DNA of 64,000 nucleotides from NCBI GenBank assembly GCA_944363575.1, contig CALVUJ010000001.1, positions 1-64,000 of the forward strand, in the 5' to 3' direction. Shown here one piece after another: positions 41,663-47,303 of this stretch (its first letter is position 1; every line of letters starts with the position of its first letter). Source of the stretch: an uncultured Bacilli bacterium (lineage in GTDB: Bacteria > Bacillota_I > Bacilli_A > RFN20 > DUOF01). Under the pieces are notes generated by a model. The model saw nothing but the letters and a program-made list of their open reading frames with translations. It did no database searches and had not been told where the DNA came from. The position numbers and the translations under genes were made by a program.

Positions 41663-42886
41663 ATGGATATAGAATTGAGAGAACTTTTGAGTATAGAGAA
41701 AAGAAGGCAAAAGAATACAATTGAATTAATTGCTTCGGAAAACTATACTTCTAGAAGTGTTAGAAAATTAGTGGGAAGTATTTTTACTAATAAGTATGCA
41801 GAGGGATATCCATCAAATAGATATTATGGAGGATGTGTGGTTGTTGATAAGGTTGAAAATTTAGCAAGAGAGAGATTAATAACATTATTTAAGGCTACTG
41901 GTTATCATGCGAACGTTCAACCACATTCTGGTTCTCAAGCTAATATGGCTGTTTATAAGGCTGTGTTAGAGATTGGTGATACGATTTTATCAATGGATCT
42001 TAATAGTGGCGGGCATTTATCTCATGGTAGCCCAGTTAGTTTTAGTGGGAAAGAGTATAATATTATTTCTTATGGGTTAAATGATAGCGAACTTATTGAT
42101 TATGAAGATATGCTTGAAAAAACTAAAAAATATAAACCTAAGTTAATTGTAGTGGGTGCTAGTAGTTATACTAGAATTATTGATTTTGCTAAATGTAAGG
42201 AAATTGCTGATAGTGTTAATGCTTATTTGATGTGTGATATTGCTCATATTGCTGGGTTAGTAGTAGCGGGGTTACATCCTAGTCCTGTTGGGTATGCTGA
42301 TTTTATTACTAGTACTACTCATAAAACATTGAGAGGTCCTAGAGGTGGGTTTATTCTTTGTAAAGAGGAGTATAGCGAGTTGATTGATAAAGCGGTATTT
42401 CCAGGTATCCAAGGTGGTCCTTTAATGCATGTTATTGCAGGTAAGGCTCAATGTTTTTATGAAGCATCTAAGCTTAAATTTAGGGAATATCAAATGCAAA
42501 TTGTTAGAAATGTTAAGGCAATGGAAAAAATTTTTTTAGAGAATAATGTTAAGTTAGTGAGTGGTGGTTCTGATAATCACATGTTACTAATAAATGTTAA
42601 AGATTCTTTTGGGATAACTGGTAAAGAAGCTGAACAAATATTAGATGATATAGGTGTTGCTTGTAATAAAAATATGATAGCTTTTGATACAGCGAAGGCT
42701 AGTGTTACATCTGGTATTAGAATTGGTACACCAGCGATGACCACAAAAGGGTTTAAAGAAAGTGATTTTGAGGAAGTAGCAAAGATTATTATTTGTGCTT
42801 TAAGTGGAAGACAACGAAAAGAAGACTTAATAGATAGGGTAGAAAAATTGTTGCATAAATGGAGATTTTCTTCTTTTAATTGGTGA
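41663..42886 (+). CDS. glyA: Serine hydroxymethyltransferase
   Basis: The 407-residue PLP enzyme interconverts serine and glycine and loads tetrahydrofolate with one-carbon units. It has [65 protein letters not shown] and the PLP-lysine box [17 protein letters not shown] 41663 has an AGGAGGGG site; the in-frame ATG at 41645 overlaps the previous gene and was rejected. It is operon-like with the upstream ATPase and downstream trmL. Confidence 0.95.
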
Positions 42887-42891
42887 GAAAA

Positions 42892-43404
42892 ATGATTAAT
42901 GTAGTTTTGTTTGAGCCTGAGAAACCTTTAAATACAGGTAATATTATGAGGACTTGTGTGGCTAGTGGGTGTAAGTTGCATATTATTGGGCCTTTAACAT
43001 ATAAGATTGATGATAAGGGATTAAAAAGAGCGGGGATGGATTATTTAAAAGATGTTCATTATAACTATTATGATAGTTATGAAGATTTTTTGTGTGCTAA
43101 TAATAATCCTAAGATTTTTTATATTACTAGATATGGTAAAAAAGCTCCTAGTGAGATTAATTTTAAAGAGATTAAGGAAGATATTTATGTGATGTTTGGA
43201 AAAGAGAGCACGGGTATTCCTAAAGATATTTTAAAGGAGCATTTAGACTATTGTTTTAGAATACCGATGTTAGAGGGAATAAGGAGTCTTAATTTGTCTA
43301 ATTGCGTAGCAATTGTAGTTTATGAAATATTGAGACAAAGAGAGTATGAGGGATTATCTAAGGTAGAGACTATAAAAGGGGAAAATTATTTAGAAAAAAA
43401 CTAA
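42892..43404 (+). CDS. trmL: tRNA (cytidine(34)-2'-O)-methyltransferase
   Basis: The 170-residue SPOUT enzyme has VLFEPEKPLNTGNIMRTCVA, LHIIGPLTYKIDDKGLKRAG, VMFGKESTGIPKDIL and the knot RIPMLEGIRSLNLSNCVAIV. It methylates the ribose of wobble position 34 in some leucine tRNAs. ATG 42892 has a GGTGAG site that includes the glyA stop. Confidence 0.92.
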   Translation: MINVVLFEPEKPLNTGNIMRTCVASGCKLHIIGPLTYKIDDKGLKRAGMDYLKDVHYNYYDSYEDFLCANNNPKIFYITRYGKKAPSEINFKEIKEDIYVMFGKESTGIPKDILKEHLDYCFRIPMLEGIRSLNLSNCVAIVVYEILRQREYEGLSKVETIKGENYLEKN

Positions 43405-43498
43405 CATTTATTGTTAACATAAATTTAATTAATTGATAGTTGTTATTTGTTGTGATAAAATATCTTTGTATATATTTGGTTCAGGTGGTGAGTAACAT

Positions 43499-46400
43499 AT
43501 GTATAATTGGTTGAAAAAGCATAAAATAGGTAAAATTATATCTTTTATTTTAATTATTGTGTTTTCAATTAACTTAGTAGGCTGTGATGAACCTAATAGT
43601 GTTCCTCCGGGGTTAGATGGGGGAGGAATTGAGAATTTATCTGTTGGTGTAGGAGAAAATATTAATGGTTATACGGTGTATCCAGAGTCTACTTTTGATC
43701 CTATGTCAGAGGAATTATATTATGGATATTTGTTAAGTTATCGTAGTTTTATATTAGTTGTAGTTCCTGGAGTTGGAGATGGTAGTGAAGATAATCCTTA
43801 TACAGTTTCTAACCCAGATAATTATTTATTTAGATATGCTCAATATGGTGTTTATAAGTTTGATGAACAAATAGGTGATTTTGTAGATAAAGATAAAAAA
43901 TTATTAATGTACTATGTTACTGTTCAGGAATTAAGAAGTTGGTTTATTAATTCTCATGAGGATGATAATTTTATGAGTAATGCTGTAGAATTTCATAGTT
44001 CTGATGTAGATGTGGCTAAGCCTAGTAGATTTAAATGTGAAAATTTAGTTAATTATACGGGAGGTTTAAATGCCGAAGATTTTTGTGGAACGTATGGAAA
44101 TGATCAATATAATGGTGGGATTATTAATAATTCAACGGGTCTTTTTAACGATTCGATAAAAGGTGGTATGATTTTATTTTTTGGTGCTAGTTCTATTGCG
44201 GGGTATATAACTTATGATGATATAGTAAATAATACAAGTTCTCAATTAGCTAATGAGTTAGATAATGTAGGCTATTATGACTACGTTAATGAAGGGTTTG
44301 ATTATAGTGAGATGTTAGAAGGTGGTAGTGGAGAATATATTAGAAATCAATTATATGATATATATGATGCTACTACGGAGCATGCAAAAGAGCAAATTAA
44401 TAATAGTTTATCGGACGTATCTAGCCTTAGTGATGATTTAAAAAGTTCTATTATTTCGGCTTATACTGAATACTATTTGGTGGGTACAAAAGGATTGGAA
44501 AGATTAAAGAGAACTTATGAATTGCTAGAGAGATCATTAATAGAAGATGCAAAAAATGATCCTAATTTACGTAATATTAGTGCATATACTATAAATGTTA
44601 TTAAGGAAAAGTATAGGTCTCTTTCTTCTAGTGATGAAAAATATCTTGCTTTATATGAGGTTTGTAGTATGTTTTCAAAATTCAAAGAATCAGCAAAAGA
44701 TGAAGCTTTTGATATTAAATTCTCTTTCTCTTTATATAGTAGGGTTGTTGATATTACTGATTATTCAGATATTAGTAGTACGCTTAGTACTGGTGAACAA
44801 TACACTAGTATTATAGGTTATGATTTGAAAAATGAAAGTTCTCGAAATAATCTTTTGTTTGATGAAGCATATAAATTATCTAACGGGCAAAGTGATGAAG
44901 GAGATTATTTATTGTTAATAACAGCTGATGGATTTACTCTTGATAGAGGGTCAGAGGATGAACAAATCTTTTTAGGAGCTTCCGATATGTTTGGTTCAGG
45001 ATTGTTGCAAGAACTAGTTAGAATGGATTCTTGTCCTAATGCAACAATTGCAGCACAGATGTATAATATGCTTGCTGAATTAAAGGTAGCTATTGGTAGT
45101 GCTTTGGCTGTTTCTGGTGCTATTGCAGTTACAGCATCTGCTATTGGTCTTACCATTGCTTCGGTTATTGGAAAATTAGCGGCTTTTTCTTTAGCTACTC
45201 CTGTTCCTGGTGGAAGAATTGTTGCTCTTGTTTTAGCTGGTATAGCAGGATTGATTACTCTTGGAGTAGGAATATATACACTTGTTGATGGACTTAAAGA
45301 CAAAAGTCGTATTAAAGGACTTGGTGCATCTGAGGAAAATTATTGTAAAACTTACGTTGCAACAGTTAAGGAGTTACTTAATACTTTTTCATTACCTATA
45401 CCTGTATATCATTACGAAATTCCTAAAGATGAAAATGTTGATCAAGGCTTAAGTATTAATTACTGTGTGCAAGGTGAATATGATTCTGATATAGGAAAGT
45501 GCGTTGAATATACTAATGATGGAATTCTTGTTTCTGAGACTTATCCTATTAGTATTCCAATGTACTTCTATGCAGATAATGATCAAAGCGAAAAATTATC
45601 TTTACCGGGGGCTCCAATGTTAATGTACTTTAGAGAAAATAAATTAGTAGATTATATATATGGGGCAGCTACTCCAGAGTTTATTGTAGAAATGCTTAGA
45701 ATATGGGGAGTTCTAGCATTTAGAGAGATTGTTTATTCTTCTGCAATTGATGGGAATAGAGCTACTATTACTAGGACTTCCAATACAACAGCTAATACAA
45801 TTGAGGTTAAAGAATATAGGTATTGCTTTACATTGGATTATGGTATGAATTTATATGGTGATGATGTTAATGAAAGTTATTGTTATTACAATGGTAATAC
45901 TTTTGTACAGAAAAGCGATGGTGCTAGTGATATGATAAATTCAGGTAGTTCGATGGTTGTAGACTTTAGTAGTGATGTTTTGAGTGGGCTTAAAGAATCT
46001 TTAAGTCAGAGATATAATAATGAAAATTATCTTGGAGAAAAGGAACAATATAAGTATTTAAAGATAAAGGATGAGTATATTGAAGATATAGAAGATGTAG
46101 ATGTTAGTGATTTTACATGTGATATAACTAGTCCTAATTTTAGTGATAAATCTTATGGTATTGATGGAGAGGGAAATATTTATTATTGTGGCGTTGAAGA
46201 AAATGCTGATGGTAGTCATGTTAATAAAATTAAAAATATTGCTAGGATAAAAGATAACAATAGAGCAGCATTAGAAGCAGAATTACTTGAACAAGGTATA
46301 TCTTTGTTTGATTTCTTAGAATATTTGAAAGGTAACAAGATTTTTGTAGGCGAGGAAATTAAAGTATCTGATTTATATTTTACTGTAACATTTAAAGATG

Positions 46401-46672
46401 AGCCTCAAGCACAAAATGAAGATGGAAAATTATTATATTATAGAAGTGGTACATTGTTTGGATGGGGCGATGGTTATAAATGGAAAGAAAAAGATAAAGT
46501 AAGTGATAACTCAGAGTTTAGACCTGTTGGAATTGATGAGGCAGCAGGTACTACTAAAGAAGATGAAGTTGTTAATGATTCTTATAATTATTTTTCTGCT
46601 AGTGCGAGATATGGTGAAGTTTATATTAAAATTAATGAAAATGGTGAGATATTAGTTGATATTAAAAGGTAA
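43499..46672 (+). CDS. Very large lipoprotein with internal membrane hairpin, function unknown
   Basis: This 1057-residue protein has the N-terminal lipoprotein signal IISFILIIVFSINLVGC, with Cys29 as the lipid site. Residues about 30-525 form a helical and beta-rich outside part (YDDIVNNTSSQLANELDNVG, long helices around 285-385). Residues about 530-605 are strongly hydrophobic, with two long Gly/Ala-rich helices joined by PVPGGR. After that come about 450 more residues with several Cys. The ribosome site GGTGAG is clear. No family is recognised. The hairpin resembles membrane-inserting segments of pore-forming proteins; this is inference only. The next gene is a SHOCT membrane protein 17 bases on, a likely partner. 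Confidence 0.7.
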   Translation: MYNWLKKHKIGKIISFILIIVFSINLVGCDEPNSVPPGLDGGGIENLSVGVGENINGYTVYPESTFDPMSEELYYGYLLSYRSFILVVVPGVGDGSEDNPYTVSNPDNYLFRYAQYGVYKFDEQIGDFVDKDKKLLMYYVTVQELRSWFINSHEDDNFMSNAVEFHSSDVDVAKPSRFKCENLVNYTGGLNAEDFCGTYGNDQYNGGIINNSTGLFNDSIKGGMILFFGASSIAGYITYDDIVNNTSSQLANELDNVGYYDYVNEGFDYSEMLEGGSGEYIRNQLYDIYDATTEHAKEQINNSLSDVSSLSDDLKSSIISAYTEYYLVGTKGLERLKRTYELLERSLIEDAKNDPNLRNISAYTINVIKEKYRSLSSSDEKYLALYEVCSMFSKFKESAKDEAFDIKFSFSLYSRVVDITDYSDISSTLSTGEQYTSIIGYDLKNESSRNNLLFDEAYKLSNGQSDEGDYLLLITADGFTLDRGSEDEQIFLGASDMFGSGLLQELVRMDSCPNATIAAQMYNMLAELKVAIGSALAVSGAIAVTASAIGLTIASVIGKLAAFSLATPVPGGRIVALVLAGIAGLITLGVGIYTLVDGLKDKSRIKGLGASEENYCKTYVATVKELLNTFSLPIPVYHYEIPKDENVDQGLSINYCVQGEYDSDIGKCVEYTNDGILVSETYPISIPMYFYADNDQSEKLSLPGAPMLMYFRENKLVDYIYGAATPEFIVEMLRIWGVLAFREIVYSSAIDGNRATITRTSNTTANTIEVKEYRYCFTLDYGMNLYGDDVNESYCYYNGNTFVQKSDGASDMINSGSSMVVDFSSDVLSGLKESLSQRYNNENYLGEKEQYKYLKIKDEYIEDIEDVDVSDFTCDITSPNFSDKSYGIDGEGNIYYCGVEENADGSHVNKIKNIARIKDNNRAALEAELLEQGISLFDFLEYLKGNKIFVGEEIKVSDLYFTVTFKDEPQAQNEDGKLLYYRSGTLFGWGDGYKWKEKDKVSDNSEFRPVGIDEAAGTTKEDEVVNDSYNYFSASARYGEVYIKINENGEILVDIKR

Positions 46673-46689
46673 GAAAGGTGGTAATTGCA

Positions 46690-47283
46690 GTGAAAACGAA
46701 ACTTGTTACTAGAAGAGGGGAAAGTAAAGAGTTATCTTTAATATTTTCATGGGGGTATTTTTGTTTTGGACCTTTCTATTATTTAAAATATAAAATGATT
46801 TTTAGGTTTTTGCTATTGCTAATTATTTATGTTTTTGGTATATGGAAGCAATGTGGTAGTTATTTAGTGGATTTGTTAGTTTCATGGGGAGCTAATGAAA
46901 AATATGTTTCTTTTCTTGAATGGCCTGGTGAGCATTATTGGGTTACTATTGGTGTTATTGTAGGTTTACATATTGTTATTAGTTTTATTACTCCTAGAGT
47001 TATTATTAATTACTTATTACATAAAAAAGGTTTCCTTCCTTATAGCGAAATAGATGCTCAGATATTAGTTAAGTATTCATTGGCTAAAGTTGGTACTTTG
47101 TGTTTTTTAGGTAATTTTAAAACAATACATGGTGTGCAAGGTAAAATAAAGATTGAAAATGATGCTGAGTTAAGTAAAAAACTTGATGAGTTAGCTCAAT
47201 TATTAAAAGAAGGTATGATTACCAAAGATGAGTATAATACCAAACGAGCAGAAGCATTGATGAATGTTTCAAATAAAAAGTAA
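46690..47283 (+). CDS. Membrane protein with SHOCT domain
   Basis: The 197-residue protein starts at GTG 46690 (AGAAAGGTGG site). It has three membrane helices (about residues 35-60, 75-110 with gap) after a short soluble start resembling DUF2628-type proteins (SWGYFCFGPFYYLKYKMIFR). It ends in a SHOCT oligomerisation domain, LDELAQLLKEGMITKDEYNT. SHOCT pieces serve protein-protein contact. It is co-directional with the giant lipoprotein. Confidence 0.65.
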   Translation: MKTKLVTRRGESKELSLIFSWGYFCFGPFYYLKYKMIFRFLLLLIIYVFGIWKQCGSYLVDLLVSWGANEKYVSFLEWPGEHYWVTIGVIVGLHIVISFITPRVIINYLLHKKGFLPYSEIDAQILVKYSLAKVGTLCFLGNFKTIHGVQGKIKIENDAELSKKLDELAQLLKEGMITKDEYNTKRAEALMNVSNKK

Positions 47284-47303
47284 TCGTTGAGATTACTTTT
47301 TTT
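47279..47303. terminator. Bidirectional terminator between SHOCT gene and polC
   Basis: AGTAATC, loop GTTGA, GATTACT, T run. It overlaps both gene ends. Confidence 0.75.

Follow-up and report, generated by a model that had tools for sequence, protein, structure and literature searches.

Genes and features downstream of trmL

The window (the whole 64,000 nucleotide stretch of DNA that was analysed) is from an uncultured Bacilli bacterium of the gut. Directly downstream of a trmL-like gene, and on the same strand, it carries the gene for a very large lipoprotein (referred to below as the giant), which is followed by the gene for a SHOCT membrane protein. The features of this region are:

42880..43404, + strand: trmL-like tRNA methyltransferase gene, the syntenic anchor (68-69% identical to the genes of genomes G001 and G002; present in 45 of 58 relatives)
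43433..43461, + strand: promoter-like site TTGATA-17-TAAAAT with TG extension (a consensus match only, at 10 of 12 positions)
43499..46672, + strand: giant lipoprotein gene (ORF, 1057 aa; the G001 ortholog, L021:4431-6908, has 825 aa)
43499..43585, + strand: signal peptide and lipobox LVGC29 (read from the sequence; the Cys is aligned in G001)
43703..44215, + strand: N-terminal module, aa 69-239 (alignment of three family members)
44903..44923, + strand: strand DYLLLIT, aa 469-475 (identical in G001; aligns with beta-1 of short thioredoxin lipoproteins)
45056..45313, + strand: Gly/Ala-rich hydrophobic hairpin, aa 520-605 (hydrophobicity, shuffles; helices in both AlphaFold models)
45566..45703, + strand: putative cis-Pro/beta3-beta4/helix region, aa 690-735 (resembles a thioredoxin lipoprotein of G053)
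45806..46669, + strand: C-terminal region, aa 770-1057 (no match)
46690..47283, + strand: SHOCT membrane protein gene, 197 aa (Pfam SHOCT, E=2e-5; related to the G001 neighbour)
47277..47303, + strand: terminator-like hairpin with T run, after the SHOCT gene (RNA fold -8.9 kcal/mol, z=-4.3)

The promoter-like site lies 37 bases 5' of the start of the giant and is the sole top-scoring plus strand site between positions 42800 and 47500. The terminator-like hairpin falls below the G-C threshold of the terminator scan; in G001, a T-run hairpin is likewise found 3' of the SHOCT gene (-13.7, z=-7.4). Because a promoter-like site precedes the two genes and a terminator-like hairpin follows them, the giant and SHOCT genes look like one two-gene transcription unit.

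The N-terminus of the giant reads ...FSINLVGC29, which we take as signal peptide and lipobox. The strongest internal hydrophobic stretches are residues 574-594 and 535-558, and these coincide with the two helices of the hairpin (at about 535-558 and 574-595). Gly and Ala account for 30% of residues 520-605 compared to 14% over the whole protein, and the hydrophobicity of the hairpin over 70 residues was matched by none of 2000 shuffles. The loop between the helices is short and positively charged (K559...R573), which favours a cytoplasmic location of the loop, with both halves of the giant outside. The combination of a lipid anchor at Cys29 with a Gly/Ala-rich double helix at about 530-605, inserted into the membrane with both halves of the protein outside, had been proposed in an earlier note on this DNA; lipobox, hydrophobicity, shuffles, and loop charge agree with it, so that at the sequence level the giant has a double anchor. 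The note's alternative of a pore-forming segment gained no positive support. In the G001 ortholog, the hairpin corresponds to residues 383-424 and is Gly-rich. One Cys precedes and one follows the hairpin in both orthologs (Cys512 and Cys616 in the window, Cys368 and Cys443 in G001). A CxxC motif is absent from all 1057 residues of the giant.

The SHOCT protein has two membrane helices and a tail which ends in the SHOCT motif (24.6 bits, just under the Pfam cut-off of 27); the motif is also matched in 9 of 11 aligned relatives. This layout is shared with SHOCT-domain membrane proteins (PF09851; PMC3581485), in which the short motif is found C-terminal to membrane helices; a function of SHOCT was only hypothesised in PMC3581485. 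The tail should face the cytoplasm, and the loop outside is short. We found no conserved Cys pair in the helices. A likeness to DUF2628 was considered and rejected, as none of 11 members matches that domain. The preferred start is the GTG at 46690, which is 17 bases past the stop codon of the giant, the distance given in the earlier note. An in-frame GTG at 46678 is disfavoured because it is located within the Shine-Dalgarno sequence AAAGGTGG, and the N-terminus resulting from position 46690 agrees with that of the relative.

Occurrence of the gene block and family searches

The linkage of the giant with the SHOCT gene, which the earlier note had singled out as a point where its proposal might fail, is kept in a second genus of the family. 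This genome, G001, is a Bacilli MAG from sheep rectum and carries trmL, the 825-aa hairpin lipoprotein, and the SHOCT gene in the order and orientation seen in the window. When aligned, the giants are 28% identical (BLAST E=7e-11 for a C-terminal block and 4e-10 for an N-terminal block); the SHOCT proteins are 49% identical. The genes flanking the block differ: glyA and polC in the window, a cell-wall-hydrolase-like gene and plsY/gyrB in G001.

A scan of genome contigs with the SHOCT pair returned G001 only. The linkage was observed in just two genomes, both of a single family. SHOCT proteins occur order-wide; outside the family they adjoin other genes (e.g. truB-ribF or a nudix gene), and a giant lipoprotein is their neighbour in this family only. 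Four genomes represent the family. The SHOCT gene is present in just the two which have a hairpin giant, and was not found in the other two (G002 and G003), where a hairpin giant is lacking. This co-occurrence (n=4) is suggestive of the SHOCT gene tracking the hairpin giant. In G002, a lipoprotein gene follows trmL but runs off the contig after 275 aa; no hairpin is seen in this visible part, and its absence from the complete protein is not certain since the contig ends.

The giant and SHOCT genes might be chance neighbours with unrelated functions, sharing a transcript by descent only. The small sample, with the pair in two genomes from a family of four, leaves some room for this. The block has, however, been kept across two genera at the given levels of divergence while its flanks differ, and the two family genomes without hairpin giant yielded no SHOCT gene. 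We consider mere adjacency distinctly improbable.

No family could be assigned to the giant, in agreement with the earlier note. Scans against Pfam, NCBIfam, PADLOC, and PHROGs gave only noise, and a PDB profile search with the two giants (window and G001) gave no match. The C-terminal region (aa 770-1057) is without match in profile, family, and PDB searches. A profile built from both giants retrieved nothing further from 279 genomes of the order; the search of viral contigs and the scan of genome contigs with the giant as query were also negative. An internal duplication was not significant when assessed by hhalign. Several matches were rejected. In a sample of 395 genomes from the class, the single match (E=7e-4) covers the hairpin only and was judged compositional. 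The best PHROG matches of the G001 giant and its match to LeoB are all on the Gly/Ala hairpin and also look compositional.

The hairpin invites comparison with glycine-zipper hairpin domains (PF13488, PF13441) and with zipper toxins such as TelE and EsxX. For Gly-zipper_Omp, where the cut-off is 25, the G001 hairpin reaches 22.3 bits (PF13488 E=1.3e-4, under cut-off). The hairpin of the window giant does not match PF13488, and no toxin delivery module accompanies it. Glycine-zipper membrane toxins with immunity proteins are known (PMC10434224, PMC12744356). On this basis, the hairpin could be a pore-forming glycine zipper, the giant an antibacterial toxin that acts on contact, and the SHOCT protein the matching immunity protein. 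We find this extremely improbable: the giant is lipid-anchored and has neither an LXG nor any other secretion module, it is a single-copy protein without a repertoire of tips, and a SHOCT family which occurs order-wide in the absence of giants is not a dedicated immunity protein.

Probable relation to trmL-linked thioredoxin lipoproteins

A short lipoprotein with a CxxC motif is encoded directly after trmL, on the same strand, in 13 of 27 relatives examined (our count), often overlapping trmL by a few bases. The lipid-modified Cys, the CxxC motif, and the proline at the cis-Pro position are invariant in these proteins, and a profile built from them finds thioredoxins and disulfide isomerases in the PDB. 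Among the best-scoring thioredoxin lipoproteins across the order, most adjoin trmL. The nearest NCBIfam model for the CxxC thioredoxin lipoproteins of this lineage is that of PedC/BrcD-type thiol-disulfide isomerases (TIGR01295); all scores are far under its cut-off (120 bits), and the giant is not matched. There are also families in which trmL converges with the gene for a membrane-anchored, thioredoxin-like CxxC protein (L042:2047-2652, L048:2044-2619, L066:739-1416, L067:611-1333), so that trmL and thioredoxin-like genes are neighbours in more than one arrangement.

The giant shares with the trmL-linked thioredoxin lipoproteins (e.g. L058, L062, L097) the lipobox, the position directly downstream of trmL on the same strand, and a local similarity in the cis-Pro/beta3-beta4 segment. 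It differs from them in size (1057 aa compared to 143-267 aa), in the lack of CxxC, and in having a hairpin and a large C-terminal region. The local similarity was detected when the giant was compared to 58 relatives at E<=0.001: the sole match is the trmL-linked CGHC lipoprotein of G053, with 41% identity across 46 aa (E=9.4e-6, calculated for one genome) in the cis-Pro/beta3-beta4 segment (GAPMLMYFRENKLVDYIYG in the giant, GVPVTMIFEKGKMVDYIYG in G053). In a local database, this lipoprotein was again the first match outside G001, and shuffled proteins gave no match.

This sole match coincides exactly with the lipoprotein gene in the syntenic slot; for a random gene of G053, we put the odds of that at roughly 1 in 1300. 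This argues against the giant being a surface lipoprotein (adhesin, binding protein, or receptor) which is unrelated to thioredoxins, arose or was inserted here, uses its hairpin as a second anchor, and resembles the G053 protein by convergence. Such an origin would fit the non-significant profile, fold, and family matches and the low confidence of the structure models. The profile of thioredoxin lipoproteins does not score significantly against the giant (0.3 bits; hhalign probability about 3%). The full-length AlphaFold model has a mean pLDDT of 27.9. A cropped model, built with thioredoxin rows in the alignment and therefore partly circular, reaches a pLDDT of 48.1. Its secondary-structure elements follow one another as in a thioredoxin, and the hairpin falls within alpha-1, which we do not take as proof; when this model was submitted to Foldseek, several thioredoxins were near the top, all with E>1 and with those rows having been part of the model's alignment. 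A second point against an unrelated lipoprotein comes from G002. The N-terminus of its lipoprotein scores 13.3 bits with the thioredoxin-lipoprotein profile (shuffle maximum 8.0; part of the score is from the signal peptide), and its segment KESFILLTTSSRGSGDYC resembles the thioredoxin beta-1/active-site segment with the first Cys missing. By its sequence, it looks like an intermediate between a short thioredoxin lipoprotein and the giant. Overall, we regard an unrelated origin as somewhat unlikely.

When thioredoxin lipoproteins are aligned to residues 455-780 of the giant, beta-1 corresponds to DYLLLIT, beta-2 to IPVYHYEI, and beta3-beta4 to the segment matched by G053; the hairpin is positioned within alpha-1, with a helix after it. 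The stretch from beta-1 to the Cys is far longer in the giant than in thioredoxin, which speaks against this assignment. DYLLLIT is a possible beta-1 of a second thioredoxin-like module. The N-terminal module has a helix (MSEELY) followed by the strands SFILVVV, LLMYYV, and MILFF, and is a possible degenerate thioredoxin fold, the first of two. After its first strand, G001 and G002 have a CX7C motif, which has been lost in the window giant. The module arrangement and the Cys pairing were read from just two or three sequences and do not amount to proof.

The giant occupies the slot of the thioredoxin lipoproteins after trmL and is locally similar to one of them, which points to descent from such a protein rather than to a wholly new system. 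Thioredoxin ancestry is likely, not proven. More specifically, the giant is most likely a lineage-specific expansion of the trmL-linked lipoprotein, from which CxxC has disappeared and to which a membrane hairpin has been added. The suggestion of a new surface system made in the earlier note has to be revised: the slot is order-wide, and SHOCT proteins are found across the order in unrelated contexts.

Putative function and redox setting

We infer the following arrangement, which in our judgement has an even chance of being correct. The giant would descend, much enlarged, from the short thioredoxin lipoprotein encoded after trmL in related families. It is lipid-anchored outside the cell and probably consists of two thioredoxin-like modules and a unique C-terminal region. 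In module 2, the hairpin would be inserted between beta-1 and the rest of alpha-1, the classical CxxC having been lost. By re-entering the membrane, it would leave both halves outside and hold the giant twice. The hairpin would be the only part of the giant able to meet the SHOCT protein, and its two helices may pack against the two SHOCT helices to form a small helix bundle. The pair may then provide a scaffold or receptor on the extracytoplasmic side, either non-catalytic or weakly redox-active, which is coupled across the membrane to an adaptor inside. An exchange of redox chemistry for physical coupling by placing the hairpin between the Cys positions, with the outside domain signalling to or being held by the cytoplasmic SHOCT tail, is a quite doubtful reading.

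DsbD/CcdA-type proteins (PF02683) were not detected in six genomes of the order (G000, G001, G002, G003, G053, G043), while 10 of 14 controls were positive. This is relevant to a comparison with Etrx1 and Etrx2 from Streptococcus pneumoniae, which also belong to the thioredoxin family, come from a Firmicute, and are lipid-anchored at the surface on the extracytoplasmic side; CcdA and SpMsrAB2 are their partners in redox pathways (PMC3914529). Unlike these, the giant is devoid of CxxC and its genome is without detectable CcdA/DsbD_TM. One could argue that the giant is itself redox-active, with C512/C616 (C368/C443 in G001) forming a split active-site pair, the hairpin carrying electrons or signals, and the SHOCT protein replacing CcdA/DsbD. 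The location of one Cys on either side of the hairpin in both orthologs is compatible with this, as is the absence of PF02683 despite many CxxC lipoproteins. We nevertheless judge it very improbable, as the SHOCT helices have no conserved Cys pair, only two sequences underlie the Cys pairing, and the giant lacks CxxC.

The six genomes carry many extracytoplasmic CxxC proteins. In G003, four consecutive thioredoxin-type lipoproteins of 452, 542, 538, and 518 aa are encoded (C3:53134-59772; L090:5135-11773), three of which have two CxxC motifs each; the next gene (L090:11878-13167) codes for a lipoprotein that appears ApbE-like by eye. G000, the genome to which the window belongs, has a tandem thioredoxin-like lipoprotein with CGGC and CSDC (C24; L081:811-1836), a thioredoxin-like lipoprotein with a single CYGC (C9; L087:1450-1989), and a membrane-anchored thioredoxin-like protein with CVYC (C6; L077:1288-1944). 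A lipoprotein of about 225-245 aa adjoins thioredoxin lipoproteins in G000 (L087:1964-2701) and G001 (L078:822-1499) and has a conserved VMCGGGGYA.MT, reminiscent of a rhodanese-like active-site loop.

The giant is unusual, is retained together with its partner within a very small clade, and most probably descends from a type of protein that is already known. If our interpretation is true, a small surface thioredoxin has grown about sixfold, its catalytic motif has gone, and a second anchor now holds it in the membrane. A SHOCT protein, whose motif is common in bacteria and uncertain in function, would moreover have a partner that can be tested. The many CxxC lipoproteins, in genomes where DsbD/CcdA was not detected, raise the question of how this lineage powers its extracytoplasmic thiols.
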